The notes beneath the pieces were generated by a model. The model did not search any database. It was not told the DNA's origin and saw only the letters and a program-made list of their open reading frames with translations. The position numbers were made by a program, and so were the translations under genes. Below are positions 5,172 through 64,000 of a DNA stretch of 64,000 bases, piece after piece; positions within the stretch are counted from its first letter, which is position 1, and every line of letters starts with the position of its first letter. This DNA is from Psilocybe azurescens (taxonomy: Eukaryota > Basidiomycota > Agaricomycetes > Agaricales > Agrocybaceae), in NCBI GenBank assembly GCA_023853785.1, contig JAJIRX010000325.1:35324-99323 (forward strand), written 5' to 3'.

Positions 5172-7747
5172 TTCGAGTGACGCTGCACAGACAGGAGGGG
5201 ACGATAGAATGGAAGATGCACGGATAGTGGTTCGCCTCGAGAGGGAAAGAGGGAGCCGGGAAACTTGGTGTACTCGACAGAATGTTGGGCTTGTGTTCAG
5301 AAGTCCAAAATTATATTCTAGCGGCTAGCTGGTAAGTAACCACCATCGCCACCTTTCAATCAATGCAAATTGATTTTGTTCCGAGTTTTCGGTTCAATTT
5401 ACAATTGCCGTCGTTCTCACAGGCACCAAAAGTGACATAAAACTTCATTCAGTTCTACGCAGCCGTTCCTTATTCGAATCCTCGATTCAGTTATTTTTCC
5501 CACTGTTACAGTAACCACGGCGTAGATTTAGGGTTTCAAGAGCAAATCATGAAATGGATACTCAATGATTCCAAAGAGACATAATTATTCTAAATAATGT
5601 ATTGGGTAGCTGTAGTGCATTGTAAATCAGTACATGCAAGATTCCAACAGAATAATTACAATCAATTCGACTCGGTGTATTGCAGTTATTGCAGTTATTC
5701 TGATAAGACCATCGTTAGGAGAACGTCGTACAAAGTACAGAAACATGTTAGAACTACATAGACGCACCATGAACCATGCATATCGGCGTAATCATTGAGC
5801 CGGAGCTAGCCTTAAATTTGATGTCATTCCTGTTCCTCCGGTCCTTGCAAACTGCAACGGCGAACTCACACTCGCCTTCCCGTTCCTTAGCTATCTTTAT
5901 CCCAACCAGGATACTTAGGCGTCCTCACCGAGCCCACTGCTAAATCCTTTCTCCTCTCCTCCATATTCGGCTCTTCAGGTTCTTAATAGGCCAAACTCGG
6001 GCAAAGAGAAATGTCCATCCCGGTCTGTGCACGTCAGTGCACCCTTTGCACTGACACAGATTTCTGAGAATACGTTTTATTTGTGGTATATGGGAAGATT
6101 CTTGACTGAGTATCATATAATAAGGTAATAAGCATGTATAGATGTATTTCTGTGGCAACTACGTAGTATGGCGATTTCGATGGCTGTGTTGTGATCAAAA
6201 AATCGTGAGAATGGTCAAAAATTGTCGAATCAGTGACTTGTTGCTTCTTCATAGGCGGAGGCTTGGATATCTAAGAGATATTAAAAAAAGGAATGTGCTT
6301 TATCAGTACTTTAATCTTTTAAAAATAAGTACACTGTCTCTGACAGAAGTACTACAGTACATATAAGTTCTGATCGGCCGCGTTTGGTGGCTGTGCTGAA
6401 AAGCGACATCCCCGTGGACGGGCGTCAAACTCACGCACAAACTAGAGAAGTGCTACGTACACCATAGTACGGCTATTAATCAAGTCTAAAAGTCATATCT
6501 AGCTTGATAAAATTGTCAGGAAATGACATAATATATCCATATCATAATTGAGAGAGCTGAACTATAATTGATAATGACTCGAAATGAGCCCATACATAAT
6601 CAATCTAACGAACGTTAGTTAATTAGTTTCTTAGTTAGCAGTAGAAAATACGTCATATAAGTCATAATAGCGATACAACTGCAATGTCATTTTCCACAAC
6701 CCAACCCGCTTTTGCCTATATTATTCAATGCCTACAACAACAAACGACTCCCCGCGCAACGGTAACATGCATGACATCAAGGCCTCAATATACAAACATT
6801 ATCGCTGGAATTTTGACAGCGCACAAGGTTGCTATAGCTGATAAGCAATCTTATGAACACGCAACTGTAATACAGCCGTGTATTGAAACGCATACATTCT
6901 AGGAGCAGGAAAGGATTAGTATAGCACAGGTCCAGCGGGTAAGCATCTGGAGCTTCAAAAGCCTCGACATGTAGCTCCGCATGCGAAAATCAAGCTCCTC
7001 TCAAATTCAAGCGCCGCATGGACCATATCGAGACATGAACTCGTCCGTTTTTAATTCTCCTCGCGGCACTTGCTCACTCCCCTTTATATTCCACGTTTAA
7101 CATGAGTCAATGGTCGGCCGAGTTTTCATTGTTCATAAGGCGAAGCAGATGAGTTGAAACCGGTGTCTGCGGGGTCTCAGAAGCACTGATGGGGTAGTCA
7201 CTCGACCAGCGCTGTCTTTCCAGGCAAGCTTGAGCTTCAACATAAATCTGCAAAGAGGGGAGGTAGTGCAGCGGAAAACACAACAGGGCAGAGTTGGATA
7301 GTTTGATAAATGTGATAAGTGAGATTTATTGTATATTCGGAAGAGTTTTGTTGTGTTTTTCTTATCTACAAGTGATGTTGAAGCGCATATATCGACTTTT
7401 TATGTGTGTAGCCGGACGTTTAAGTATGTCTTCAAGTACTCCATAATGGCGTCAACTCGGATGTTGCATCCTTCGCCTACGTCAGAAACCCTACCATCTC
7501 CTTCGTTGACTTTCACGTCATTTTCCATACCCACACCCACACCCGCACTCACATCCGCACCCGCCTCTTTCACTCTCGCCTACTACTTCTTGCTCCCACC
7601 TCGCACCCACCTCATTCCCTCATATCATGTTTTATTCATCCCTGCAATATAGAAAATAGCTACAACAGGACCGTGGAACAGGCTTCTAATCACATGCTAA
7701 ACCGATGCAGTGACGCCATCATGACTTTACCTGTGCATTTTAACCAT
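5172..7747. other. Gene-poor AT-rich stretch
   Basis: Only short, unrelated open frames are present. None has splice-linked partners or family resemblance. Confidence 0.5.
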
Positions 7748-20195: not shown

Positions 20196-23100
20196 CATGA
20201 ATGAAGGTTTAACTTGCTGAAGGTTCTTAGCGAACGTACTTCAAGCCTTTCTACATATTGTTCTTCATCATCCATTGTAATTGGGCGCGATATTCTTCTG
20301 CGTTTCAGAGCATCCCTTGCGGATGATTTAGTTGGAGGCTAATTAGTAATGGGGTTAATAAGGGGTAAGGGTTTTTATGGAAGACGTTAGACTTACGATT
20401 TCATTTTGGTAAGAAGTATCATCCGTGTCACAACCCCAAGCGGGTAGGTCATAGGATCCTTGTGGCATCTTGCTAGACATGGGAAGATCCAAGCGATGAT
20501 TGGATGTAGACAAAGAGGATTGTGTTGAAGAATTGGACCTCTTGCTCTGGATGTCACTGAAGTGGAAATAATCATCGTCTTCATCAAGGTCCACCTCCGT
20601 TGCTGGCCCAGCACGCTTCTGGAGAAATGTATTCACCACGGACTGACTTATGGGCTTACGTGGAATTAGAACGGATGGTGCAGCTTTGCTGGACTTCTGT
20701 GGGAATATTTTAGGTGTCTCGATACCAGAAGGCGTCCTACCCGCCTGTGGCACTGTGGCTGCATCTCGCTTGTTGTGGGTGGAGGGCATCATCCTGCCTG
20801 CCGAGCGGAAAGATTTTGGCTCTGGGCTGGCCAAATGGAATATGGGAACTGATGGTGAGGATGGTTTAGTCGCTTCTATGGAGCTCGCGTGAGTGTTGAT
20901 GTCTTGTGCAGCAGTCTGAGACAGGGAGATCGATGCTAGAGCCAATGGGTTGTTAGTCACCTGACGATGTGCATTGAAGCTGCAGGGATACTCACCGGCC
21001 ATCCCGGATGGTGGGTGCAACTGTTGCGCCATTGTGGGGACGGAGTCACTAGGGAAAGTGTCTGACCCCCTCTAGCGCTATGTCAACATCTTGCTTATTG
21101 TGAGTAGAGGGACAGGGCACCATCCTGGCCGGCGAGTGGAATGATTCAAGGTTTTGGGTTCTTGTGCTGTCCGCATGTCCATCTTGCATTTCGATGTCGG
21201 CAGTAGGGCTTGTCACATTTAATGGAGAAGCTAATGGTGAGAGTATTTGGTTTCCTTCGATGGAGCTCTTGTGAGTGTTGATGTCTTGTACAACCGTCTG
21301 GGACAGGCGGCGTGACGTTGGGGCCATTGGGATTTGTCTCACATATTGTTGGTTGTGGGATGGCGCAGCTACTCCCATAGTGGTGATGCCAGCCTCGGCC
21401 GCTACATGGGAGAGTACGGGCTGTTCATTTCCTGGGGAATCAGTGTGTACTCCACTCGTTTCGACATCGATGGAAAAGGTTGCTTCACTTTGTGCCTTGT
21501 TGCCGGGTTTTATGTGACTGTTGTTCATCGGAGCAGAAACAAGTGGGCCGACATCCTTGAGGAGGGTAGTAATAGAAGATGTTGTTGATATCCTCATTGT
21601 GCCGGTGGCTGCTTTCTCTGGTGTCTGGGAAGGCTTGTCGTCTGAGTCAAGCACAACAACCTTCGATTGAACGCGTGACTGGTGTATCTTGGGCAGCTTG
21701 CTGGCCACTGACGCAGCATCATCTTTTCTCTTGGTACCAGAGCGACGCTTCTTGGCAGGCCTGGCTGAAGTATTGCTGGTGGACGAGGGCTGTGTCTGCT
21801 TTCTTTTTCGGCCTTTGCTTTTGAATAGCTCAGGTAAATCGTTGGGATCACATTCGATTTCATCGTCATTTTTATCGGATCTAATTTCTTCCCCATTCAA
21901 TACCTTTTCGAGGTCTGTAAACGCACTAATATGAGTCGATGAAGATTGAAGACCAAAACACGCACAAGGATCCATCTCTTTACCCCACAGACTATGTTCC
22001 ATTCTCAATTTTGACTTCGCGTGCTGCATCATAAGGCCATCTGTTGTGTTGATGGCAGTAAGATACACAATGCGAACTTGCTTAGTCTGTCCCCTTCTCC
22101 AAATGCGTCCGTTAATTTGTTCCTGTTGAACGGCGCTCCATATCATGTCCTTAAAAATACGTCGGTAAATAACATGATATACATAAAGCCATGAACTCAC
22201 AAAGTGTATCATCACATCCGCTTGTGGAAAGTTGAGCCCAGTGGATCCAACGTTGCTGAAGAGAAGAACGCTGGGGGACCCGGGGTTTGTGGTACTCTTA
22301 AAACTATCAAGCAACATTGTACGCCTGTCAGCTGCAACTGCTCCAGTTATAACAACGTGATCTATTCCGTTCAACGTCAGAGCCTTTATATAATATGAGT
22401 TAAAATTTATATGATCGACAAAATAGAAGATAACTCACTGATGCAATTCGTTGGGACATCATTGCAAAGGAAAAGTAGACGGCGATCTTGCGAGTCTGTG
22501 GTGCCGTCTGTCCATCTGGGACAGCAGGAGACGGGGATAAACTATCTCACCCGGTATTGCATGCGGATCATCGAGGTTTTGGTCTCCTCTTCATTTTCAT
22601 TATCAACAAAGAAGCGGTTGTCGCCGGTAGACAGTGTAGAATGACAGTCATCCTGGGAGGACTGGCGCACTCTTCCAGTTTGACGTAGGGGCTAGAGATG
22701 TCATCGTGGCTGAGGTAATGTGACAAGACTTTGACAAGTACGTCGAGTTTGGCGCCTTTCTTCGCTGTATTCATCAAGAGATATAAATGGAGTATATTCG
22801 CTGGTCACTGCTCCAGCGTCGTCAGAAGTGGACTTCACGATCTGTGTTGAAGGTAAGGCCAATTGGACGCGATACGCGGTCATAAAACCCTGGACGATGA
22901 AGACATCAGAACGACTGCTTCTAAAAAGAAACAAATAACACTGACCTCCCATCTGCAATCGGCGATGCTGTTTGTGGTCTGGCTCAGGTCCGCGAGAATG
23001 ACATTCAGTATTTTATACTCCCACGGCTCGAGGTTGAAGAACAGGTGGACGTTCAATTTTTTAGCAATGTTGTGATCGGCTTACCGTCCGGACGCGAGAG

Positions 23101-25752
23101 ACGAATGGGTGCGGCGGATGATACGGTCTGAGAGCACTGTCTGCAGCTGTTTGACGGAGCTATAATTTGCAGCCTTCACATGGCGGGTGGGATCAACAAA
23201 CTCCTTGTCTGCATGGCCTTTCAGAACAATATCGGCGAGGTTTTCGGATCGTTTGCTCTTCTCCTCGTTGACTTTCTTGTACGCCTGACGCTGAGTGCGT
23301 TGGAAATCCTTTTCAAAGCCCACGCCGTCTTGACCAGCCACGGATGGGATACCAATTATCCAGCGCAATATTGAGCAGGTCCTGCAGCAAAAGTGTCAGC
23401 GCTATATGCCGTCCGGGACGGTGCGTGCGCGAGCGTACCGTTGCTTGGCGTCATGACCGGGGTGGCTGTGCAGCCAATGGCAACCACGGCTTTGCGAGCT
23501 AACGCTGCGGCACCAACAAAACCCGCGGACTTCTGGCCCTTGATACCATGAACCTCGTCGACCGCCATAAGACACCAGTCCTGGTCGAATATAGTAAAAA
23601 AGCCCTTATCAATGCGGGGGTAAGGAGTATCGGGAGTCGAGATAGACCGAGTGCGGTTAAAATTGTGCGCAGTCATTATCTTCATTGTCTAGTACCCAAT
23701 AAGCGCTACATGTTGACCACAGAACCTCTATTATACTCACCGATTCTGCACACAGAACAACACGGTTTATCATTGTTTGCTTAGAAATATTCCAGGGAGA
23801 CTGAGAGTTCTTAAAAATAGTCGACATCCTGTAAAGTCTGGGGAGAATAAAAATATCAAACGAGCCCTTGACGAAGAATCGTTTAATCTCACGCCTCCAC
23901 TGGTAGACAATGGGGAGGGGCAGAACAAATAAAGTGGGAAGATCAGGAACGTGTTTGTGTGTTCCAAAGTAATCTTTGCCCACTACAACATTAGGAAAGA
24001 TCAGTTACAGTGAAGAGGCGCAGTCAAGGATGGCAACGAAGCGTGCAAAGACGTACCAACAATGGGGAAGCTCTCGATTTAAGCTCTGGCACATACGCAC
24101 AGTCAATACCAATGCCAAGATCCCAAAGATTTGGCAAGTTTTGCCAAGTCCTACAGCATCGCAAAGAAGAAACCTCCCTGAGTGTTCGACTTCAGTCGAC
24201 GTGAAGATCATATCCGCCATGGCGCAAATACCAACGCCTTGATGCCATTGCAGTTTCAGTAGGGACATCTCCGGATCAGCATGGAAAGCCTGAAGAGCTT
24301 CATCAGATAAGTCCCAACTATCACGTGTGTCATCCGGGTGCAGGCTAACGTTCCATTGTGGGGGACGACCGTCCGGGAAGGCCAACACGCCGGAACACCT
24401 CATCTTCCGTTTTCTTGTACCATGCGTGCACGCCCATATCAGGACACTCGCTGTCCAGAAAATTCATCAGCTCGTCGGTACAGTCATCGCCAGGCCTCAC
24501 GGTGGAACCGTCATGATCGGCTTCCTCGTAGTACGAAATCAAGAGTTCCAACAAACGTTCAATATCTGCAGCAGTAGCCAGGTCAGAGCCTCCCAGTTTT
24601 TTCTTCTGTCCGCTTTGACGGGCCTTTGTGACTAAATAGACATAACACATCAGCCAATGTTAGATGGATGGGAAGATCATGCACCTTTCTCCAGGAGAGC
24701 ACTGGGATCCTTCTGTGGTGGCAGAACTCTTTCAACCACAACACCAGCATTCTCCATGACTCCAAGACACATAGCAATGGCGGTATGGTGCTCAGCGGCA
24801 AAATCGGGATCCCATATTGTGTATGGTTGTGTAGACCTCGTCAGTTGAGCGATTGTCTTCATAACATCCTTGGAGGCCACCTCCGACTCGTTCAACACTA
24901 TACCAGTTTTAGTCACCGCACATGAACATTAATTGGCTAAAGCACTAACGTTTAACACTTTCCCTCAAGTTGGGAAGCTTTTTTGCGATTTGGTTCTTTG
25001 CAACTGTATACTGTCTTTTCAGACGTGTATACTGATGGACCAGCCATGACTGGGTAACGCTATAGATGTCTCGGTGTGTGATACCTCCTCCCGCGCCGGT
25101 GGCCTGTCCAAATACCTTAGGAGAAAACGTCCTGACAACATATGCAGCAAGGTGACCAATGTGGGGATACTCCAAACGCCCCTTGATCCCCTGCCCGGAT
25201 GAAGTGACAATGATGGAAGGAGGCCAATGATCCGGGTCTTCTTGTAAGATCCTATTGACGATGGCATTGATCTTTCTGGAATTACCCTGGTACCACCGCG
25301 AGTAAATCTGAGATGCTACTTGGTTGTACTGGCCCGAATGAGCACGATCTATCATTTTTCCGGTGTTTCAGCAATAAGAAGACTCTGGATCCACTCGCCT
25401 ACAAGGCGTGCATCTTCAGCGTTGCGATATCCACGAGGGACGGGGTCATGTTCATTGAAGGACGGGCGAAAATCAATACCCCAAAAGTCAAGAATTTGGC
25501 GATTCTCCCATCCAGGAGTGTGTGTTTCTAGGTCACCGGAAAACGACATGAGTATCATGAAACAAGCGCCTGCTGAAATGGATGGCATGGTTTATAATGC
25601 GGGTTGCAGAGTGGGAAAAAGTACATTCCGCCTTTCGATGCGGCTCTTAATATGAGAAATGGTAGGAGCAACAAGCCCACGCTTAAATCACGTAGTGTGA
25701 AAGCATCAAAACCACTATACAACACATCAGCGCGCACTCTATAGTGCACCAT
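20196..25752 (-). CDS. SNF2-family ATPase / helicase-like protein
   Basis: Long multi-exon gene on -. Motifs in order: Walker A DAVGLGKT (24,137-24,160), FVLPLPIVYQWRREIKRF, DEVHG box (23,546-23,563), GCTATPV (about 23,470), then the helicase C lobe with ALTLNGIDHVVITG, SNVGSTGLNFPQADVMI and EQINGRIWRRGQTKQVR (about 22,060-22,125), the SNF2 motif VI. Basic stretches GRKRKQ and PAKKRRSGTKRK suggest nuclear localisation. The Ser/Pro-rich C-terminal region carries an internal duplication; a last exon (about 20,196-20,342) ends SLRTFSKLNLHS. The N-terminal ~400 residues are not a domain I recognise. Apparent 1-nt frameshifts lie near 24,375 and 21,055. The start may be 25,588 or 25,752. Role inferred: ATP-driven remodelling or translocation on DNA. 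Confidence 0.75.
20740..21335 (-). repeat. Internal tandem duplication in the SNF2 gene tail
   Basis: Blocks at about 20,757-20,965 and 21,083-21,335 encode parallel peptides: SLSQTAAQDINTHASSIE versus RLSQTVVQDINTHKSSIE, and SFRSAGRMMPSTHNKRD versus SFHSPARMVPCPSTHNKQD. Offsets are 325-380 bp, so one or more indels followed the duplication. Confidence 0.85.
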
Positions 25753-51260: not shown

Positions 51261-52440
51261 ACCACCTCACGGCTCGGGGTTCTTCGATGCGTTTCCTGGA
51301 GCTCGTGGAGGGCGGGGAATAAAGATCTGTTGGGGAAGGAGGTCTTGGACGAGGTTGCTATGGGAGTGGAGGTGTGTTTTGGTGTTGGGGCAGAGGAAGG
51401 GGGAGGAGAGAGCAGGTTTGGGTTTAATGCGGAGGGGAATGTTGTATGTTTTCTTTCCTCGCTTTGTCTTTCTTTCTTTCGCTCCTTTCGTCCTTGCTGA
51501 TTTTATTATTATTATTTGTTCATGCAGCCATTCGTGCCCCTCCTGATTTATACCCGTGCATCTACGTTCTCTCAAGGTGGGATAACGATCAGGCACAGGC
51601 TGATGCACACGCCGGACGCGTAGAACTTGATGAAATTTATGGATAGCTGATTGAGAGGAGCAGGTCGTCGTTGATTTCTGCACCGCCTGTGCGTTGACTT
51701 TTCTTTTTTCATGCTTTTCTTTTCGTTCAATCGGTTTTACCGGGTTTTTTTACGCTACGCTACAGATGCAAGGCATAGATACGATCCAGTCGAACCAAGA
51801 CCCTGCAGGCGGAGCCGCAGCACAGCTGCAGTATGAAGATGACAGCGGGTTGTTATCTGATAGAAGCGACAATAACGATAACGACGAGGATGACAACGAG
51901 GAGGAGGATTCCGACAAAGAGTTCGCGGATGCGTCGGATGCGAGTCCGGGGACGAGCCTTTGTTACATTTGTATATCTTGCCTTTCAACGATCTTCTGCT
52001 CAAGGTCGAGAAGGTGCGCCTGCGGTCAACCAAAGACAAGGTCAAGGACCGAGAGCGCCGTTTAATCTTCCGGAGCTGAACATCCTCCCCAGTTCGCCTG
52101 CGATGCCAACGCCAGGCGCGACTTTGCCCACTGCTATTCATATTTTCCTGTCCTCAGCGGCAGGGAGGACGTACCTAGAGCCTCGGTAGGGCTTTTGCAA
52201 CCTTCGTCTGTTCTAGCTCCGACGTCAGTGTCGAAGAGCAGGTTCAACTCGAAGAAGCTTGTGTAGAAGTTCCTCGGTTAGGAGGAAGATAGGCGTCTGC
52301 GTGGCCTGCGGCGGACGTGCAGGGAAATCTCGCGCCGCCAAGGGCAAGGGGCGATAAGGGATCGTTGGAGAAGAAGGCGAATAAGGAGAGGGGGAAGGAG
52401 AAGAAGGAGCGGAGGAGCAAGGTCAGCTAGCGATGATGCA
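51260..52440 (+). other. Coding-like remnants, acidic and Lys/Glu-rich, unidentified
   Basis: A GT...AG pair (about 51,440-51,530) would join a GC-rich exon to FVPLLIYTRASTFSQGG. In another frame, VELDEIYG precedes LIERSRSSLISAPP. After an intron comes an acidic run (NDNDEDDNEEEDSDKEF, about 51,865-51,935), then a Lys/Glu-rich stretch near 52,360-52,420. Stops interrupt every model I tried. I cannot name the family. Confidence 0.35.
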
Positions 52441-52837
52441 ATGGGAGTGGAAAGGGGAGTATATCGCCTTAGGGGGTAGTGGGAGTGATACGGGTGTCTT
52501 CTGAGAAGGGAGGAGAGGGGACGAGGGATTATAGTCTGACGCTGAGTACGGCGAAGGAGATGAAATGGAAGGTGAAGCACAATCCTGTTATATGCTTTAG
52601 GTGTGCCTTCTTCCAACGAACTCAAGCGTACATATATGCTAACGTGTCAGACGAAGATCCGGCGAGGACAGAGGACGAGCAAGAAGGATGAACTTGGGTG
52701 AATTGACCAGAATGAAACTACCTTGCATCTGTGCTAGGCGCGAGTTTATATGCGCGCAGGTGACCTGCTCCAGCTTTAGGTGTTCCTTCTTCCTACCAAC
52801 TCAAGCGTATATATATGCTAATGTCACCACGACGCAG

Positions 52838-53010
52838 AGAGAAATACCAGCCGTATGACGCCCTCCGCCAGTGCTTCTGCCAGCAGTGCCTCAAGCAGTA
52901 TGAGACAGACAACATGTGCGCGCCTTCCTACCTCGAGCTGCGTGCAATGCTCGACTTTCTCGGGTCTGTGCTTACCTCAGCCACCACGTCCTCGTTCTTC
53001 ACACACCATG
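52838..53010 (+). repeat. Duplicated module M, copy 2
   Basis: Partner of 49,190-49,385; reads SYLELRAMLDFLGSVL in the matching frame. It is preceded by a second small direct repeat: CAACxAACTCAAGCGTAyATATATGCTAA-type blocks at about 52,615-52,645 and 52,795-52,825. Confidence 0.65.
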
Positions 53011-55296
53011 GGAATCAATTTCGTAGATTATGGATACAGTTCTTAATCTCTCGCTCATTTAAATAAGACTTCTGTAGCTGACCTGTTCTTGATGCTTCCT
53101 TGAGTTTGTATGTTATGTACTGTCGCTTGATCCTTAAGTCCTGGAGCGATTACAAACAAAAAATTTACTCTTTCGTATGAGCACCTGTAAAGTATACATC
53201 AATACTAAGACTTGCAGGTGGAATATTTCATCCGCACAATCCGTATTGCGCTTTTGTATCTGTTTCATTTCGCACATTCAAGCTGGCTTGTATACATCGT
53301 GCTCATAATTGGGTTGGCATTCTCGCCTACACTTTATTTTTAAATAAGCTAGATGAAGTGTATAAGCTACCAAGACAGACTCAGTATAGCTCAAATGAAT
53401 CCCTTTAGGGATTTATGTCCTCGATTCCAGCGAAAACAGGTCAGTTGTGGCACTGGGTCGGAACTAAAGGAATACATTAGAAGATATATACATAACAATT
53501 TGGAAGCTTACCCATTCGCAAATGAGTTGCACAATCTCACGTAACGGCATGTCAGAGCTCTCTATGACATCTCTACTCAAATGATGCACCGCCCATTCAT
53601 AGTAAGTTTGTAAGTCAGTGCTGCCTGTGGCGTAGCAGACCTCGCTAGGCGCCTGATATCTGATTTGTAATAAAAATTCAGACCAGCACGACTTTTATTA
53701 CCAGCTAACAACAACAGCATGTTGCAATCTTCCTGCGTTTCATTGGCGGATCACTTTCTGTCATGTGAAGATTTACGTTTGCCTATCATCTTCCCTCTAA
53801 ATCACTTGCTATTCTGTAAATTTAAGCACTCATCTCAAATTACAATCACCATTTACTATGTATCTGACCTAGGTATATGCTGACCTATCTCGTCTTAATC
53901 GTCTCAAGGTGGATCATGTTCAATATGAAGTACAAGTGCATTTGAATAGTTATTGTACATATATGTTCTATGCAACGCTCTGAAGACTCACCCATATTAT
54001 TGATACCAGTACTACGTTGTTGTGCTTCTATATACCTTTACGGAAACGATGCTCGCCAAACTCTCTTTCCCCCCCGGGCGGTCGAGAGGACATTTCCTTT
54101 GCCGTGAAGCTTGTCAACAGCAACACAAACCTGAAGACCGACACGAAAGCAGTTTCACAAGGCAACAGACTCGGACTCGGACTCGGAAGGTCCTCAATGT
54201 CATATTGTGACAGATACAGTTACTTACGCCTCCTTGAAAATCATCAGTATGCCAGAATTAAACAAAAGAAGGAGATGCCCGACGTACGAGACGAGCCGGT
54301 GTCGATATGCAGAGAGAACGACTGGTTCTTGTGGCCAAACTTGAAGCTTGACTGGGAGGGTGTATGCACTGTCGACAAATAAATCAGTCAGACTAGCCAG
54401 ACTAGCCAGCTGTCATTATTCAAAGCTCCCAAACAACTCCACAAGACGAAGGAAGGAAGGAGAACGAAAAACGATGGTGATGTAAACTGCAAGCAGTTCG
54501 ATTGCCTGGATCATTTGCTCTCCATCGCCGATGTCGTCATAATCATCGTCTAGACTGGTTCGCAGATGAAATACGATTCAAAGAAGAATTCAACAAGGAG
54601 AGAAATTGCAAGGTTCGGCGACAGAACAAAAGACAAACGACGATCAATATGACATGGGGCACTGGCCTTCGATGACCGATCACATTGCTCGGTGCTCATG
54701 CCTCCTACTGCAACAGCAGCAGCGCATGCTGATGATGAGAATGAATGCGGTCCCAGGGACGCAGTAGGTGCATGCATAGCACAAACCACCATGGATTCTG
54801 GAAGATAGTGTCAATTTTATATGACCCCAATCAGAACCCCCTCGCCTTGGGCCAAATGATATGAGATATGAAGATCATCTAAGATATGCGGGTATGGTGT
54901 TCTACATTCCTTGAGCCGGAGGACAACGCGATGAAAATAGGAGAAGTATCAGCGTGGGTTGTTGCAGCATGAATTGAAGTGAGAACAAGAACGGTGACAG
55001 TGAGAGGGACGCTGGAGGGATAGGGATAGGGGGATAAAGGGATAGGGAAACAAGGAGAGTGGTTGTCAAAAGGAAGGAGGGGACAGGAAGGGAGGAAAGC
55101 ACCATAACTTTTACTTGGACATATTCTCGTTGAATCCACCAACGCGAAGGACAGTTCGTATTAAGACAGTTCCAACTGAAGAACATCAAATGAGTCCGAC
55201 AATACTGAGTGCACAGGAAATGAGACAAATTGAGTTTGGGTCTAAGCTAGGAGCAACGCATCTCACTTCATAAATTCCAGCCGCAGAACTTATTGA
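53011..55296. other. No recognised gene; unique DNA left of the retroelement stack
   Basis: A 121-codon + frame (54,017-54,382) has no family match. Unique sequence ends abruptly at 55,296, where the first TTTGGGG tract starts. Confidence 0.45.
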
Positions 55297-55313
55297 GGTT
55301 TGGGGTTTGGGGG
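55297..55313 (+). repeat. Telomere-like junction tract 1
   Basis: GGTTTGGGGTTTGGGGG joins unique DNA to the first retroelement fragment. Confidence 0.85.
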
Positions 55314-55375
55314 TGAGGGGGGCGCAAATCAATGCAAAAGGCTGTGTGTTACACTATGAGTGTGGGGCGACAGGC
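55314..55375 (-). mobile_element. Penelope-like fragment 1 (62 bp, 3' end only)
   Basis: Matches the 3' terminus of copy C (60,096-60,158): TGAGGGGGGCGCAAA, GCTGTGTGTTACACTATGAG and TGTGGGGCGA are shared. It stops where the hammerhead ribozyme of the long copies would be cleaved, give or take a few nt, and is followed directly by another TTTGGGG tract. Confidence 0.85.
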
Positions 55376-55395
55376 TTGGGGTTTGGGGTTTGGGG
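55376..55395 (+). repeat. Telomere-like junction tract 2
   Basis: Nearly three units of TTTGGGG between fragment 1 and copy A. Confidence 0.85.
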
Positions 55396-55445
55396 AGAGG
55401 TGGTGCTAAAAGCGAAATCTGCAGGTTACACTATGAGTGTGGGGG

Positions 55446-55521
55446 CGATATGTGCTAAATGACTTTGGAGGGTTATCCAAAGTAGCCATTTCGCTCTTTA
55501 TAGACTCATCAGTAGCTATCG
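55446..55521 (-). ncRNA. Type I hammerhead ribozyme, copy A (stem II damaged)
   Basis: On -: stem I CGATAGCTA pairs with TAGC-ACA-TATCG; the core CTGATGA and GAAA are present; stem III is a long hairpin (ACTTTGGA/TCCAAAGT with a TAACCC loop, plus ATG/CAT at its base). Predicted cleavage falls between 55,458 and 55,457, leaving a 62-nt 3' product. Stem II reads GTC-TATAAA-GAGC instead of GTC-TATAAA-GAC, an extra G that should weaken it. Confidence 0.8.
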
Positions 55522-55937
55522 TATGTAAGGAATATTACTAAATGCTCTTAAAATAGCGCGCGTTTACTAAGCTAAGCGCCTATTCTTAGCTAATCGACTA
55601 TTGATTACTCATCCTTTTATTGTTACCTTTGTAATCTTTCTCGCGAATGCGGGAACGTTAAGGGTCTTGCTGACTGATTACAATAGAGTCGATCGACTCA
55701 TTATCGATAACATCGTGGGGTGGATTAGTGATCAATTCATCTTGATTATGAATCGGCGAGACCGGATTGCTCCAATCGGTCAATCTGACTAAAAGATTAG
55801 TCATGTCAGTGTAATAGCTTACCAATCGTGTCGAGAATAGACACTAGACTTTATAATTGTCTATCCATGTACTTATGCTACCCGGATAAATCCGGGGCCA
55901 AGGTACCGGTCAACGATCCGGACTACTGGGTTCGAAT

Positions 55938-56021
55938 CTACTAATCCGGCGGTGCATCGTGTTGGGCTGCTTACTAACCTAGGTGTTGGGCAGCTTACTA
56001 AGCCAGCGGTGCTTCGTTTTC
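55938..56021. repeat. Triple TACTAA/CGGTGC microrepeat in element UTR, copy A
   Basis: Three degenerate ~28-35 nt units built on TTACTAAxCC...GCGGTGCxTCGT; conserved at 60,660-60,748 in copy C, hence part of the element. Possible structured RNA or protein site. Confidence 0.6.
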
Positions 56022-56119
56022 GAACGATCCGTTCGTGAGGAAAGTGCCGGTCCCGAGATACATCTCGTACATCCTTCCCTAATAAGGCAATTGTTAGAAT
56101 TACCTATTTGGGTAAGTTC

Positions 56120-56154
56120 GGTTTGGGGTTGATTGGGTTTGGGTTTGGGTTTGG
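56120..56154 (+). repeat. Internal TTTGGG tract, copy A
   Basis: TTTGGGG followed, after a short interruption, by four TTTGGG-type units, at the same place in the element as 60,858-60,892. Confidence 0.8.
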
Positions 56155-56219
56155 CTATTACGAATCAAGATGTGCTTGTGAGTTGATGTAGGTCACTCTG
56201 TAGCATGAAAATTACATAC

Positions 56220-56235
56220 GGTTTGGGGTTTGGGG
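56220..56235 (+). repeat. Internal TTTGGGG tract next to the coding end, copy A
   Basis: GGTTTGGGGTTTGGGG just beyond the coding 3' end; repeated in copy C at 60,960-60,975. Confidence 0.8.
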
Positions 56236-56242
56236 TAGCGCA

Positions 56243-59200
56243 TCAGCGACAAAAGTCGCTAGTAATTTTCTCATCGATTATTCGCTTTTGAGCTTCTGCC
56301 GAATTCTGGATGTTCCCGATCTGGAGATCGTGAACGTCGGTGTAGTATAATATCTTCACCATCGCTTTCAATGGGTATCTGTTCAGTAGCTTTGTCTGAG
56401 TCAGATTGATATTCTTCAACGACGTCTTGAATCGTAGAGAACGACACCACCTTCTTCGGGCGATGTTTTCATCCAGTTTACGAAAGACTGTTTTCTTCCA
56501 TACATTTGCAAGGTCAAATAGATTTGTGTTGCGTTTCCGGGACACTATCCAACGACTTCCGAGTAGTCCTATCTTCCTCAAGTCCGGAACGTACACTTCG
56601 TCTCCGTCAAGTTGAAGCCGCGCAAACAGCTCCGGTCTGACATCATTGAGGTCGTGGTTCATCCTCGTCACTTGGTTTGATAAAGGGTCTGGATGCGGAG
56701 GCACTAAAGTCTCCTTTCTCAGCGTGGTCATACCACTCTGACCAGTACTCGGTAACAGCTTTTCCAAGTTCGGCAGCTGAGAACCAATTCCATACGTCGT
56801 CGAATCTGGTTTTAAGTACAAGAACACCTTCGTCGTGCTCTCACGACTCGCGGTGCAAATCGTTTTCCCAACGTTCTTGTATGTTTTTCTTACACCAGCT
56901 TATGACTAGTTTTTCGGGATAGCCAGCGCGTTAAATAGAGAGCGTTAAGGTCTCTAATTGCCTCTATGTAGATATCCTTTGAACTACATAACACGGCTAA
57001 CCGGGATAACTCACCGATGTAGACGCCTCTTTTGACGTCCAACGGATGATGTGATACCCATGGAACTCGTTCTCGATTGTTTCCAGACTTGACATACGGC
57101 TTCCATTGAAGTTTTCCAGACTTCTTGAAGAGGAAGCTGTCGAGAAATTGACATCCAGTCTCTGAAACAGCCCATTCAATCACACATTCATCAAAACGAA
57201 TTGTCTTTTCGACAAAGTCGAGGGCTGCTTGCGCTGATTCTGCGTAAACTATGCCTAGGCAATCGTCGATGTACCTTCCGTAGAAGGCCACGTCGGGATG
57301 GTCTAATATCTTTGAACGTTTTTCAAATGGTATCCGTAAAGGTTGGCAAGGTCGGGAGAGTCCGCTGACCCCCATTGCAGTCCACTTAATTGTTCAAAGT
57401 ATTTATCACCATGTTGTGTGATTAATTGCGTATTGCCAATCTCGATGGCACTTTTAAAGATGTTTAACTTAATCTTATTATTCTCTAACGAATTAGGATT
57501 AAGGTGTGACAATGCATCGTCCGGCATCCGAATTGCTTAAAAGCCACTCCTCGTACATTGAACAAATGATTTCTATGCACGATTTAAGCGGTATATTCGG
57601 GTAATAGGCGACAACATCTCCTGTGACGAAGTAAAACTTTCGTCTGGAGTCTATACGCAATTGGCTTAGCCTCGTGAAGAGGTCCTTCGTACCGTGAATG
57701 ATAGAAGGAGCCGCTTTTACAAGCGGTTTAAGCTCTTTTGATATGAACTTAGCAGCCGGATTAAATACGACCGAATGACACGGTATTATGGGCCTAAATC
57801 CAGTAGGCTTCTTGTGGATTTTAGGTATGCCATGAAATTGTGGGTAATCAAACGTAGATCCATCCTCCGGTATTTTGGATCGGAAGTAATCTGGTAAGTT
57901 AAGTTCGTTAAGCATTAAATGGTCTTCTGCCATAGTGGCGAGTTGACGCATTTGTTTTGCTTTTGTTTTCATTATTCGAAGCGCATCTACGAATTCCAAC
58001 TTTGCGTAGTTGCGTTCATCTTCGAGTAATTTCAACTCGTTTCGTTTAAGCCAGTCGCGTTCTGACACCGCTAGGCCAAGGTTCTTATCAGTCATCGTAA
58101 TAACGTAGTTGTTATCCAATAAGAATCGGAGGATCTTGTCGCGTTTAGGAGAGAAACGCTTGCTTACGCGATCTCCTTAAGCGTCTCGTCAGGGATACTT
58201 GCGATCGTCTTAGTGACGTACCGACGTCCCATCACAAGGCCAAGTTCCATCCATTCGCGGTAACATAGGTGGTGCTGTTTTTTTCTTAGACGCCACACTA
58301 TAATCTGGGTCAAACGGCTTATTAAGTCCCTCTTTAAACAAAAAATAGATACGCCATCTAATTCTTCGCTGAAAGTCTTTCCATGCACTCATGATCAGAT
58401 CTTTAGAGGGGGACAAAAAGCATATATTTCAATCCGAGAGATAAATCATTTGCTATTTCTACGGGAACTGATACTCCGTCGCTACAATGTACACTATTAC
58501 GAAACTGGCCTGCCAATATAAACGATAGCGGGGTATGTAAGTGTACGAAGGTGACTGCGTGGTCCCAGGAGTAAGTCAGTATTTCGTCAGGTATAGTAGA
58601 AGGATAAGCGGGACGTACGGAGGGTGTGTTCGGACGTAAGACCGCTAAGCTCTTGCCTTTCCTTTTCCTTTGTGATCGACCTTGACGGGAGCTTTCCCTT
58701 TCCCTTTCTTCTTGTTGTCGACTTTCGAATTGGCCTTGGTGGCCGGCTTGGGTTTGTTCGACGGTTTTGAAGAATTCGGTTTGGAACCGGATTGCTTGGG
58801 AGGAGGGGCCTTGGACGAATTCTGGCCAGACAATGTCTGGATAATTACGATAGTAATTAGTATCAAGAATTGCAGGTGAAGGGTAACTAATACTTGCCTT
58901 CTTGCCTGCAGGTACAAGGTTCAGCTTCTTGAGACGTGCATTCAGGCCCTTATCGATAAGGGACTGAATCGATGGACCTGGTTTGGTCGCATCGGCCATC
59001 TCGACGTCAGCTTGCGCTGCAGTATCCTTTTTCTTCTCAATTTTCTTGGCGAGAGCGGTGGCGCATCTCTACAAGAGTATTGATCTGATTGCAGAAAAGG
59101 GGCAGTGCGATGCTGAGTGCATCACGCTCTGCCACTTTCTGCGGGGATACTTCCCACCGACCTATCTTCTGATGACCCGTAGCATCCTTGACGATGACGG

Positions 59201-59790
59201 GCATAAGGTAGCCTGAACGCCGGTCGTTCCAGGTGTCTGAAACGACTTTAGCGTGGGCTTCGTGAGACGGTGTCGGTGTTACACTTGTCCTCCCAAAACT
59301 TGAGCTCGTCTTTCTTGGCCAATCTGGCCGTTTCGTTGATCGAAGACTGGAAAGTCTCCGTCACGGAAGCGAAAGCTTGCCGTGCCGTAGCGACACCAGC
59401 TGAGCCTGAGTCCGAAAATTCCTTTGTGAATTGGAATTCCGGCGCCTTGACGCGAAGGCGGTTGGGAATAGACTTTGCAGCAAGGGATTTTTCAAGGCGT
59501 TCAAGAGAAGCCTTGACCGTTGCCCTCTTATCGCACCACGATGCGAAGGAGAGTAGCGGTTCCCTAAGCGCAATCCTGAAATCGAAATAAACGCAGTCTA
59601 AGACGTTATCGATGGAGCGACACTCAGCTATTTTCTTCTGGAGGACGATGACGAGCTCTTGTCGAAAAGCGTCGTTCTTGTCGTCGTCGAGTTGTCCGCT
59701 GACGGTGTTGGAGACAACGGCCTGGGCGAGTGCATCCAGGTGGGGGGACATGGCACGAGCGAAAGCAGTAGAATTGGATGAGAAGGACAT
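56243..59790 (-). pseudogene. Penelope-like ORF with reverse transcriptase, copy A (frameshifted)
   Basis: On -, ATG 59790 opens MSFSSNSTAFARAMSPHLDA, an N-terminal region of unknown function, followed by a Lys-rich stretch (KKKGKGKAPVK, about 58,700). The reverse transcriptase follows: DKNLGLAV, FHGIPKIHKKPTGFRPII, NPAAKFISKELKPLV, motif A FVTGDVVAYYPN (about 57,615), motif B region GLQWGSADSPDLANLYGY, motif C YGRYIDDCLG (YIDD codons 57,262-57,273), then FLDSFLF, KPYVKSGNNR and WVSHHPLDVKRGVYIGELSR. This domain order is typical of Penelope-like elements. The C-terminus (to 56,243) shows no GIY-YIG endonuclease. Several frame slips (for example near 59,000, 58,410, 58,160, 57,510, 57,330 and 56,900) make this copy non-coding as written. 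Confidence 0.8.
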
Positions 59791-59809
59791 GTTGGCGATA
59801 GTGCAGTAT

Positions 59810-59819
59810 GGGTTTGGGG
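59810..59819 (+). repeat. Telomere-like junction tract 3
   Basis: GGGTTTGGGG between the 5' end of copy A and the 3' end of copy B. Confidence 0.75.
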
Positions 59820-60085
59820 AGAGGTGGTGCTAAAAGCGAAATCTGCAGGTTACACTATGAGTGTAGGGGCGATATGTGCTAAATGACTTTGGAGGGTTAT
59901 CCAAAGTAGCCATTTCGTCTTTATAGACTCATCAGTAGCTATCGTATGTAAGGAATATTACTAAATGCTCTTAAAATAGGCGCGCGTTTACTAAGCTAAG
60001 CGCCTATTCTTAGCGAATCGACTATTGATTACTCATCCTTTTATTGTTATCTTTGTAATCTTTCTCGCAAATGCGAGAACGTCAA
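59820..60085 (-). mobile_element. Penelope-like copy B, 5'-truncated (266 bp)
   Basis: Nearly identical to the first ~265 bp of copy A (starting AGAGGTGGTGCT...) and cut off in the untranslated region after GAACGTCAA, where tract 4 begins. Contains a complete ribozyme. Confidence 0.85.
59870..59944 (-). ncRNA. Type I hammerhead ribozyme, copy B
   Basis: Same fold as in copy A but with intact stem II (GTC-TATAAA-GAC). Stem I is 4 + 5 bp around an ACA bulge. Predicted cleavage between 59,882 and 59,881 leaves a 62-nt 3' product. The site triplet is ATT, which fits the NUH rule. Confidence 0.85.
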
Positions 60086-60095
60086 GGGTTTGGGG
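60086..60095 (+). repeat. Telomere-like junction tract 4
   Basis: GGGTTTGGGG between copies B and C. Confidence 0.75.
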
Positions 60096-60146
60096 TGAGG
60101 GGGGCGCAAAATGCAAAAAGCTGTGTGTTACACTATGAGTGTGGGG

Positions 60147-60221
60147 CGATACTAGCTAAATAGCTTTGGAGGGGTATCCAAAGTAGCCATTTCGTCTTTA
60201 TAGACTCATCAGTAGCTATCG
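60147..60221 (-). ncRNA. Type I hammerhead ribozyme, copy C
   Basis: CTGATGA, stem II GTC-TATAAA-GAC and GAAA are intact. The stem III hairpin is CTTTGGA/TCCAAAG with a TACCCC loop; stem I has a TAG instead of ACA bulge. The changes keep the pairing (one base pair at the stem III base becomes G-U). Predicted cleavage between 60,159 and 60,158. Confidence 0.85.
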
Positions 60222-60659
60222 TACGTAAGGAATATTACTATATGCTCCTAAAATAAGCGTGTTTACTAAGCTAAGCGCCCTATTCTTAGCGAATCGACTA
60301 TCGATTCCTAATCGTTTTGTATTACCTTTGTAATCTTTCTCGTCCTAAAACGGGAACGTCAGAGGTCTTACTGACTAATTACAATAGAGCTGATTAAGCT
60401 TGTTTCCAATAATATCGTGGATGATTAGTTATCGAGTCACTTTGATTATGAATCGGTGGACTAGAGTTGCTCCGATCTAGTGTTTCTGACTAAACGTTAG
60501 TCATATCCGAGTAATAGCTTACCAACCAGGTCGAGAATAGACCATAGACTTCTGCAATAATAGCAGTCTATTCATATCGCTAACGCTATCCAGTAATCCG
60601 AAGAAAACCGGGCCCGGGCCGACCTACTTTGTACAAGGTCGAGTTACTGGGTTCGAACC

Positions 60660-60748
60660 TACTAATCCGGCGGTGCTTCGTGTTCGGCGACGCTTACTAA
60701 CCTAGGTGTTGGGCGTTACTTACTAAACCTGCGGTGCTTCGTTTTCGG
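60660..60748. repeat. Triple TACTAA/CGGTGC microrepeat in element UTR, copy C
   Basis: Counterpart of 55,938-56,021. Confidence 0.6.
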
Positions 60749-60857
60749 TAAGATCCGTTGGCTCGATCGAGACGTTTCGACAATTCGACCGTCGATGCGA
60801 ATAGCGGTATCCTTCCCTAATGAGGTAATTGTTAGTATTACCTGTTTGGGTAAGTTC

Positions 60858-60892
60858 GGTTTGGGTTTGGGTTGGGTTGGGTTTGGGTTTGG
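60858..60892 (+). repeat. Internal TTTGGG tract, copy C
   Basis: Five TTTGGG/TTGGG units in the same place as the tract at 56,120. Confidence 0.8.
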
Positions 60893-60959
60893 CTATTACG
60901 AATCAAAGTGTGCTTGTGAGTTGATGTGAGTCACTCTATAGCTTTTAATAATTACATAC

Positions 60960-60975
60960 GGTTTGGGGTTTGGGG
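60960..60975 (+). repeat. Internal TTTGGGG tract next to the coding end, copy C
   Basis: Counterpart of 56,220-56,235. Confidence 0.8.
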
Positions 60976-61009
60976 TGGCGTGTCGCTGACAAAGTCGCTA
61001 GTAATTATT

Positions 61010-64000
61010 TCATCGATTATTCGCTTTGGAGCTTCTGCCGAATTCTGGATGTTCCCGGTCTGGAGACCGTGATCGTCGATGTAGTATTATCTCGTTATCG
61101 CTTTCATAAACGATAGGGTTCTGTTCACTAGCTTTTACTGAGTCAGATTGATAATCTTCATTAACGTCTTGAATCAAGGGAACGACACCACCTTGTTCGG
61201 CGATGTTTTCATCCAGTTTACGAAAAACTGTTTTCTTCCATACATTTGCAAGGTCGAATAGATTTGTGTTACGTTTCCGGGACACAATCCAACGACTTCC
61301 GAGTAGTCCTATCTTCCGAAGGTCTGGTACGTACATATCTTCTCCGTCAACCGGGATCACTGCGAACAGGTCCGGCTTAACATCATCGAGTCCATGCACC
61401 TCATCGTCACTAGGTTTGATAAAGGGTCTGGATGCGGAGATTGAGTAATCTCCATTCTCAGAGCGGGTATACCACTCTGACCAGTACTCGGTAACAGCTT
61501 TACCAAGTTCGGCAGCTGAGAACCAATTCCATACTTCGTCGTATCTGGTTTTAAGTACAAGAACACTTTCGTCGTGCTCTGCGGCTCGCGATACGAACCG
61601 CTTTTCCCAACGTTCTTGTATGTTTTTCTTACACCAGGACATGACTAGTTTTTCGGGATAGCCGCGTGTGATATAGAGAGCGTTAAGGTCTCTAATTGCC
61701 TCTATGTAGATATCCTTTGAACTACATAACACGGCTAACCGGGATAGCTCCCCGATGTAAACGCCTCTTTTGACGTCCATTGGGTGATGCGATATCCATG
61801 GAACTCGTTCTCGATTGTTTCCGGCCTTGACATACGGCTTCCAACAAAGTTTTCCAGACTTTGTAAAGAGGAAGCTGTCGAGAAATTGACATCCAGTGTC
61901 GGAAACAGCCCATTCAATCACACATCCATCAAAACGAATTGAATTCTCAAGTAACTTGAGAGCGTCGTTAGCTGATTCTGCGTAAACGATGCCTAGACAA
62001 TCGTCGATGTATCTTCCGTAGAAGACCACGTCGGGATGGTTTAAAATATTCGAGTTCTTTTCAAAGTGGTACCCGTAAAGGTTGGCGAGGTCCGGTGAAT
62101 CGGCTACCCCATTGCGAGCCCACTAAGTTGCTCAAAATATTTATTACCATGTTGTGTGATTAATTGCGTATTGCCAATCTCGATGGCACGTTTAAAGATG
62201 TTCAATTTAATCTTGTTATTCTCTAACGAATTAGGATTAATATGACTTGTAGCATCGTCAGGTTCGAAGCACTTAATAACCAATCCTCATACATAATACA
62301 AATGATATCGATGCATGATTTAAGTGGTATATTCGGATAGTACGCTACTACATCTCCAGTAACGAAGTAGAACTTCTTTGAAGAATCTATACGCAATTGG
62401 CTTAATCTCGTGAAGAGATCCTTCGTACCGTGTATGATAGAAGGAGCCGCTTTTACAAGCGGTTTAAGCTCTTTGAAACGAACTTTGCAGCCGGATTAAA
62501 TACAACCGAGTGACACGGTATTATGGGCCTAAATCCAGTAGGTTGTTTGTGGATTTTAGGGATTCCATGAAATTGTGGGTAGTCAAACGTTGACCCGTCC
62601 TCCGGTATTTTCGATTTGAAAAATTCGGTGCATTTAGTTCGTTAAGCAAGGGATGTTCTTCTGCCATCTTGGCGAGTTGAATCATCTGTCTTGCTTTTGT
62701 TTTCATTACTCGTAACGCATCTACAGCTTCCAACTCTGTGTAATTACGTATATCTTGAGCAATTTTAACTCATTTCGTCTGAGCCAGTCGGCGTTCGGAC
62801 ACCGCTAGGCCAAGGTTCTTGTCAGTCATCGTAATAACGTAATTGTTATCTAACAGAAACCTAAGTAACTTGTCGCGTGAGGAGAGAAACGCTTGCTTTC
62901 GCATCTCCTTCAGCGTCTCGTCCAGGGATACAGCGATCGCTTTGTTAACGTGTCGGCGTCCCATCGCAAGGCCAAGTTCCGTAAATTCGCGGTAACATAG
63001 GTGGTTGCGTATTTTTCTTAGATGCAACCCCATAGTCTGGGTCATACGGTTTATTCATGCCTTCCTTAAACAAAAAATAGATACGCCATCTTATTCTTCG
63101 CTTAAAATCATCCCATGCACTCATGATTAGATTTTTTTAGAGGGGGGGCAGAACAACATATATTTCAATCCTAGAGATAAATCATTCGCAATATCCGTAG
63201 GTACTACAACTCCATCGCTACAATGTACACTATTACGATACTGGCCAGCCCGATATAAGCGATATGGGGGTATGTAGGTGTCACGTAGGTGACTGCGTGG
63301 TCCCAAGAGTATGTTAGTATTTCGTCAGGTATAGTATTCGGGTAAGCGGGCGTGCGGAGTAATTGTCCGGACGTAAGTCCACTAGGCTCTTGCCTTTCCC
63401 TTTCCTTTGTGTCGACCTTGACGGGTGCTTTCCCTTTGCCCTTCTTCTTGTTGTCGACCTTGGCGTTGGCTTTGGTGGCCGGTTTGGAATTGGACGGCGG
63501 TTTGAAGAGCTTAGGCTTGGAGCCGGATGCTTTGGGTTGAGGGTCCTTGGGCGAATTCTGGCCAGAGCGATGTCTGGATAATTACTATAGTAATTAGTGT
63601 CTAGAATTAGCGGGTGAAGGGTAACTAGTACTGCCTTCTTGCCCGCCCGGTGCAAGGTTGAGCTTCTTAAGAGCGTGCATTCAAGCCCCTTGTCAATAAG
63701 GGATTGAATCGATGGACCTGGTTTGGTCGCATCGGCCATCTCGGCGTCAACTTGCGCTGCAGTATCCCGCTTCTTCTACCGATTTTTTTTGCTGAGAGCG
63801 CGGTGGCGTATCTCAACAATAGTATCGATCTGATTGCAGAGCAAGGCGTGCAGGCGTTTAACGCGTCTCGCTCCGACTTTTTCTGCGGGGATACTTCCCA
63901 CCTATCGATGTGATTATTGCCGTCTTTATCTTTTTGATAACGGGCATTCGGTAGCCACGCTTCCGATCGTTCCACACTTCTGCGGTAACTTTCGAAAGGG
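61010..64000 (-). pseudogene. Penelope-like ORF with reverse transcriptase, copy C (partial, frameshifted)
   Basis: The longest open part (62,029-61,010) carries MVFYGRYIDDCLGIVYAESA (YIDD codons 62,000-62,011), CQFLDSFLFTKSGKL, RVPWISHHPMDVKRGVYIGE, ALYITRGYPEKLVMSW and a C-terminal region ending SSKANNR, again without a GIY-YIG endonuclease. Motif A lies near 62,355. N-terminal pieces (MADATKPGPSIQSLIDKGL at 63,739; a Lys/Arg/Pro-rich stretch near 63,450) match copy A. The frame breaks near 62,040-62,110, 62,270, 62,500, 62,620, 62,770 and 63,110. Start is outside the window. Confidence 0.8.

Follow-up and report, generated by a model that had tools for sequence, protein, structure and literature searches.

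Penelope-like elements stacked on TTTGGGG repeats at a probable broken and healed chromosome end of Psilocybe azurescens

The HeT-A and TART elements of Drosophila, which are retrotransposons of the non-long-terminal-repeat (non-LTR) kind in a host without telomerase, form head-to-tail arrays with their 5' ends towards the chromosome tip and with variable 5' truncation. In fungi, Gladyshev and Arkhipova are said to have described, in 2007, endonuclease-less elements of the Coprina type. The Athena elements and Terminons of bdelloid rotifers have no endonuclease, encode a telomerase-like reverse transcriptase (RT), are truncated at the 5' end by short telomeric repeats and lie in head-to-tail arrays (PMC6431247, PMC3846280); in Terminons the 3' end also has a hammerhead with reverse-complement telomeric repeats after it (PMC6431247). 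According to the second source, fungal genomes hold only endonuclease-less Penelope-like elements, and a common ancestor is assumed for the RTs of telomerase and Penelope (PMC3846280). The Poseidon element of Anolis is described in PMC11167929 as forming tandem or partial-tandem copies with pseudo-long terminal repeats (pseudo-LTRs), starting reverse transcription inside the RNA instead of at its 3' end, inserting at AT-rich sites with a GIY-YIG endonuclease and carrying a hammerhead that is dispensable for insertion in vitro. Here we describe a stack of Penelope-like elements in a 64,000-nucleotide stretch of Psilocybe azurescens, hereafter the window (C315:35324-99323, where C315 is contig JAJIRX010000325.1 in an assembly of 70.4 Mb and 937 contigs).

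We put at about 0.85 the probability that a Penelope-like element lacking an endonuclease is attached here to the telomere, in the manner of Athena and Coprina elements and in a host with TTTGGGG telomeres, and that the chromosome end was broken, healed and then extended. Membership in Athena/Coprina is likely, as judged on features and descriptions: the RT is telomerase-like, no GIY-YIG endonuclease is recognisable, the 3' end lies on G-rich repeats with the 5' end tipward, truncated 5' ends are followed by repeats, and a hammerhead, predicted below the Rfam gathering score, adjoins reverse-complement telomeric repeats. The likeness to Coprina-type elements (fungal, telomere-associated, without endonuclease) is one of description. 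Unlike in Athena and the Terminons, the repeat here is TTTGGGG, the element is about 4.4 kb as against up to 40 kb, the gag-like and RT frames form one continuous frame in the Psilocybe relative P0001, and all 12 full-length copies share a fixed junction. The Poseidon features of partial-tandem structure and pseudo-LTRs recur in these same 12 copies, whereas no GIY-YIG endonuclease was found in the same frame and the joins are at TTTGGGG. The head-to-tail order, the tipward 5' ends and the truncation likewise recall HeT-A and TART, but the poly(A)-type 3' junctions and the lack of host telomerase do not apply, since the joins are to TTTGGGG and a telomerase (TERT) domain is present. In sum, the element is of the endonuclease-less telomeric Penelope-like kind already known. 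Its host has an unusual telomere repeat, the evidence that an end was healed is unusually clear, and the partial-tandem junction is fixed; both telomerase and a telomerase-like retroelement seem to work on these ends.

From 55,299 to 64,000, where the right edge of the window is also the end of C315, the sequence switches between TTTGGGG tracts and antisense element fragments, the latter from two subfamilies, A and B, which are about 83% identical over the 3' 3 kb. By direct reading, each tract on the plus strand is followed by an antisense element 3' end; comparison with other copies assigns units 1 and 4 to A and units 2 and 3 to B.

51300-55298, no strand: subterminal host DNA as far as the breakpoint, with a homologous segment at C19:9059-13061 (99% identity over 3997 bases); C19 continues beyond the breakpoint
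55299-55313, plus: telomeric tract 1, two repeats joined straight to the broken end; the host's last GG fits the repeat
55314-55375, minus: unit 1, a piece of the subfamily A 3' end, 62 bp long; at the 5' side it stops 2 nt short of the hammerhead cut expected by comparison with other A copies
55376-55395, plus: telomeric tract 2, three repeats
55396-59809, minus: unit 2, full-length subfamily B, about 4.4 kb, gag-like and RT frames interrupted by frameshifts or stops
55446-55521, minus: predicted hammerhead ribozyme of unit 2 (pattern match, one extra base in stem II), expected cut 55457/55458
56120-56155, plus: inner telomere-like tract 1 of unit 2
56220-56236, plus: inner telomere-like tract 2 of unit 2, complementary to a stretch of CCCCAAACCCCAAACC in the RNA
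59810-59819, plus: fixed junction GGGTTTGGGG between the unit 2 5' end and unit 3, identical in 6/6 full-length B copies, with an equivalent in 6/6 A copies
59820-60085, minus: "unit 3", 266-bp subfamily B 3' region, interpreted as the left repeat (pseudo-LTR-like) of unit 2
59870-59944, minus: predicted hammerhead ribozyme of unit 3, expected cut 59881/59882, Rfam RF00008 24.3 bits (gathering score 48.5)
60086-60095, plus: telomeric junction GGGTTTGGGG between units 3 and 4
60096-64000, minus: unit 4, subfamily A, >3.9 kb, cut by the contig end
60147-60221, minus: predicted hammerhead ribozyme of unit 4, expected cut 60158/60159, Rfam 24.3 bits, below the gathering score
60858-60893, plus: inner telomere-like tract 1 of unit 4
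60960-60976, plus: inner telomere-like tract 2 of unit 4, just beyond the RT frame stop
61010-62122, minus: open RT piece of unit 4, 370 aa, with RYIDD

This reading confirms the stack of Penelope-like fragments and TTTGGGG tracts (55299-55313, 55376-55395, 59810-59819 and 60086-60095) proposed in an initial annotation of the window, together with its unit lengths of 62 bp, about 4.4 kb, 266 bp and >3.9 kb. That annotation also placed the end of unique DNA here, at 55,296; the C19 match moves the site 2 bp rightward, to 55298. The inner G-tracts, the hammerheads, the two subfamilies and the identity of the window edge with the contig end go beyond it. The segment 59800-63137 has 60 matches in the genome, itself counted, which is more than chance, and the 14-mer TTTGGGGTTTGGGG occurs 95 times as against 45 for the reversed pattern, an unclean control in that the reversed string also lies inside longer arrays. 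Further element 3' ends (..ACTCACAAGTTTTATACAGC..GCCCCCTCACCCCAAACCCCAAG) at L096, L099, L103, L104, L105 and L108 form a probable third subfamily. Some copies are interrupted by a repeat starting CAGGGTACCCATTGTCAAACATCGG or TTTCTAGAATCCTGACAAGGGTCTGTG, probably transposons (C440:21403, C290:11050 and C873:10508; C8:197358 and C887:6185).

The window segment 51300-55296 is 99% identical to C19:9059-13061, after which C19 runs through 3.4 kb of other DNA to its own array near 5,610. The sequence across the breakpoint is ..TTATTGAGG/CCAAGTAG in C19 and ..TTATTGAGG/TTTGGGG in the window. Because the two match at 99% up to the breakpoint and C19 then continues beyond it, the window is read as a broken, healed end, and we infer that C315 lost the tip, as opposed to C19 having gained it. 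Two further ends can be set against unbroken homologs, i.e., C528 against C873 (..CTGGCC/TTGGGG versus ..CTGACC/TTGATG) and C167 against C528 (..GACGAGC/TTGGGG versus ..GACGAGC/GCTAACC). Target-site duplication, which the initial annotation had named as a sign against its proposal, is seen at none of the three broken ends, and in these alignments they correspond to chromosome healing, not to insertion with target duplication. With the broken and the unbroken version of the same end in one genome, healing can be followed at single-base level. A subtelomeric repeat of about 3.8 kb (L012:742-4500, on C528) is 95-97% alike on about 12 contigs, with arrays attached at different points; the contigs matching that of C528 are C793, C686, C873, C687, C207, C309, C385, C272, C167, C901 and C782. 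For the interstitial copy on C207, the search for an empty site met another repeat at the inner flank.

Across the genome, 88 places were built into 51 clusters, the counts being lower bounds with 40 candidates scored per search. Of these clusters, 38 have the 5' end facing outward and a contig end no more than 15 kb away, 6 point inward near an end, and 7 are mid-contig. On contigs of at least 30 kb, 28 of the 40 clusters are outward near an end, compared with 8.4 expected for random positions. The difference between 38 outward and 6 inward has a binomial p of 9e-7, for clusters that are not fully independent (flanks are shared by C775/C428, by C686/C687/C793 and by C215/C620/C621). All 12 full-length copies are at contig ends and point outward.

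TTTGGGG is probably the host telomere repeat, because C8, C262 and C528 end in TTTGGGG arrays (10, 7 and 13 G-blocks, respectively), (TTAGGG)3 is absent from the genome, and a telomerase RNA-binding (TERT) domain is found on C568 above the Pfam cut-off. (TTTAGGG)2 is absent from the 109 fetched, mutually overlapping loci, a whole-genome scan for it not having been made. The description of the end as "retroelement-capped" is not supported as it stands, in view of this TERT domain and of the three contig ends with a terminal array, which are capped by 7-13 TTTGGGG-type repeats. In related mushrooms the telomere repeat is reported as TTAGGG in Agrocybe chaxingu (PMC11433599) and as TTTAGGG in Stropharia rugosoannulata (PMC8874372). 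No printed fungal TTTGGGG telomere was found among the listed titles and abstract openings of the literature searched, which misses most subscription journals, and the TTTGGGG of the fungal study PMC8209732 lies within a gene, not a telomere. A TTTGGGG host with elements ending in CCCCAAA allows a test of whether such elements track changes of the telomere repeat.

In all, 71 distinct tract starts were gathered by script, of which 7 were set aside (5 chance matches and 2 with too little sequence) and 4 are the fixed junction; the remaining 60 include 35 starts of the form C/TTGGGG and 15 of the form G/TTTGGGG. The separators hold one (22), two (26), three (9) or five (3) repeats, and the elements thus appear to join ends carrying very short telomeric tracts. 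All three terminal arrays also begin C/TTGGGG, and this shared start points to telomerase as the maker of the tracts. In 26 of the 40 tract starts chosen for a C before TTGGGG, that C is preceded by G, which would predict a telomerase RNA template ending CCCCAAGC. The search for such an RNA found CCCCAAACCCCAAG at 41 places, 13 of which were fetched; several are element copies, a few are not, and among the fetched places no non-element candidate has the end CCCCAAGC. Stretches of CCCCAAACCCC outside element copies occur at L100 (C447:340572), L101 (C473:24169), L097/L106, L102 and L094. Two of them are in allelic-looking pairs, and as judged on the template-like stretch alone they are candidate telomerase RNA templates, with L100 and L101 the best.

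Truncated 5' ends are followed by telomeric repeats, with exceptions that end in unique DNA or other repeats. These junctions bear out the initial annotation in its claim that elements join 3' end first to G-rich, telomere-like ends and are truncated at the 5' side. Two inner telomere-like tracts sit just beyond the RT frame, and 5 of the 37 tabulated truncation points fall at inner tract 1, compared with 0.43 expected if uniform (p = 8e-5) or 1.4 if the last 950 nt only are considered (p = 0.016). A 72-bp piece at C290:11168-11239 (L034) has its 3' boundary at inner tract 2, as if primed there. The hammerhead cut was considered as a general truncation site and rejected, as most of the 37 points lie elsewhere. 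Two isolated units of subfamily A, each some 62-64 bp long (window 55314-55375, and C825 about 23714-23777, L088), do end about 2 nt from the expected cut.

When all 15 candidates from a search with the element 5' part were scored, 12 proved to be full-length copies, each reaching across the fixed junction, the rest being a shortened C440 copy, unit 4, a C446 piece and weak short matches. A unit of the same subfamily follows in 12/12 full-length copies (for C284 only 29 bp of the follower are visible) and in 9/25 truncated ones (Fisher p = 0.0002). Compared in 11 of the 12 copies, the window copy included, the left repeat is strictly closest to its own 3' end in four, tied in four and not closest in three, and the window copy belongs to these last three.

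The hammerhead of the 3' region is of type I with a long stem III, and 35 variants of it account for 49 matches; CTGATGA is unchanged in 51/51 matches of a pattern fixed only outside CTGATGA. Paired changes occur in stems II and III of the C440 copy and in stem III of the C207 copy; since these copies are 97% alike, the stem III change could have arisen just once. Folding z scores of three natural variants are -3.2, -1.9 and -3.0, and the unit 2 hammerhead is absent from Rfam matches at E up to 1. The predicted cut lies 62-63 nt from the adjoining telomere-complementary 3' end, an arrangement like that described for rotifer Terminons (PMC6431247). It is conceivable, though on balance doubtful, that the hammerhead shapes the templates: tandem RNAs would be cut to unit length and closed into circles with the CCCCAAACCC unit junction inside, the telomere 3' end would prime there, and the telomerase-like RT could pass one full lap. 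If true, this would explain the same-subfamily follower, the constant junction in 12/12 copies and the left repeats through the hammerhead site, and the short solo units (about 62-64 bp) of the window and of C825 would stem from 3' fragments released by cleavage.

Among the best 120 matches listed, the RT comes nearest to Psilocybe cubensis proteins: the RT frame of copy L023 (open, 634 residues) matches one of 1080 residues at 74% identity and a P. cyanescens fragment of 366 residues at 80%, and the remoter named relatives are from Armillaria, Sanghuangporus and Lentinula. The Psilocybe cubensis relative P0001 was folded with 27 others, and the best PDB matches of its model are telomerases, so that the RT is telomerase-like as modelled; its C-terminal stretch, about 892-1022, has no assigned fold. 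Pfam gave no match in the window pieces, the L023 RT or P0001, and a weak RVT_1 match in P0079 alone of six relatives. In the PDB, L023 has no match by sequence; the profile has a weak match to a bacterial RT (E 0.0058). The GIY-YIG pattern is found in 0 of 191 relatives, which together with the Pfam result agrees with the claim that the elements have no recognisable endonuclease; the fold search of P0001 listed no endonuclease, an absence that is not evidence.

We propose the following course. The chromosome end would have broken or worn down, the comparison with C19 showing the lack of 3.4 kb and of C19's array, and one or a few TTTGGGG repeats would have been placed on it, most likely by telomerase. 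The G-rich 3' end would pair with the 3'-terminal CCCCAA(A) of the element RNA, some 62 nt past the hammerhead, and prime reverse transcription. Copying would mostly halt early, telomeric repeats would be added to the cDNA end, and the cycle would repeat, with the observed pattern of head-to-tail copies and tipward 5' ends as the outcome. Full-length templates would carry an extra 3' region ahead of the 5' end via the fixed junction, a pattern present in 12 copies, and units 2 and 3 would then be one addition.

Several observations weigh against this account. Of the 51 clusters, 13 are interstitial or point inward, so that the expectation of copies at ends in one orientation stands for 38 and fails for these. 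The Rfam scores of units 3 and 4 are below gathering, the P0001 model has only moderate confidence (predicted local distance difference test 69.5, predicted template-modelling score 0.53), the C315/C19 comparison covers 4 kb, with the outer 3.4 kb of C19 a possible gain instead, and the short separators could derive from element RNA rather than telomerase. C315 itself has no terminal telomere array, and the flank shared by C686, C687 and C793 runs on for 92 kb past the element on C686; a contig end can therefore be an assembly break and is not proven to be a chromosome end. That the window holds an interstitial array at such a break, with no chromosome end at all, would fit these last two observations and an assembly of 937 contigs, but is very improbable: breaks in repeats alone should give similar numbers of outward and inward ends, not 38 and 6, nor 12/12 full-length copies outward at contig ends, and the homologous contigs C315 and C19 each terminate in an array, at points that differ. 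The initial annotation's chromosome end to the right is thus a contig end for certain and a chromosome end probably. Spread by subtelomere recombination (break-induced replication or unequal exchange), with TTTGGGG tracts as the homology used, is somewhat less remote, though still unlikely. It would account for the B-740/A boundary common to C251 and C292 and found in a different setting on C262, for the 3.8-kb repeat common to about 12 contigs, for the three left repeats that match another copy better than their own and for the 5/37 truncation points at an inner tract. However, most 5' ends differ between copies, tracts of constant phase directly after non-repeat DNA at different sites fit de novo addition, and exchange alone leaves tracts directly on broken host DNA unexplained.

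Within healing followed by extension, the number of additions can also be weighed. The initial annotation counted four, with units 2 and 3 separate, and unit 3 indeed differs from the 3' end of unit 2 at 6/271 positions and from two other copies at 0/270. Separate additions nevertheless seem the poorer explanation, given that the same junction is found in 6/6 full-length B copies, always followed by B, whereas a truncated B is followed by B in 1/9. Unit 3 is probably part of one partial-tandem template with unit 2, the extra piece being carried by the RNA, be this a circle or a read-through transcript, and with the junction fixed in 12/12 copies and always followed by the same subfamily, three additions are more likely than four, a count that for the window copy is extrapolated from the others.

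Away from the stack, the minus strand of window positions 21049-22434 holds a 461-residue open frame that, by eye, resembles the C-terminal half of an SNF2-type helicase.

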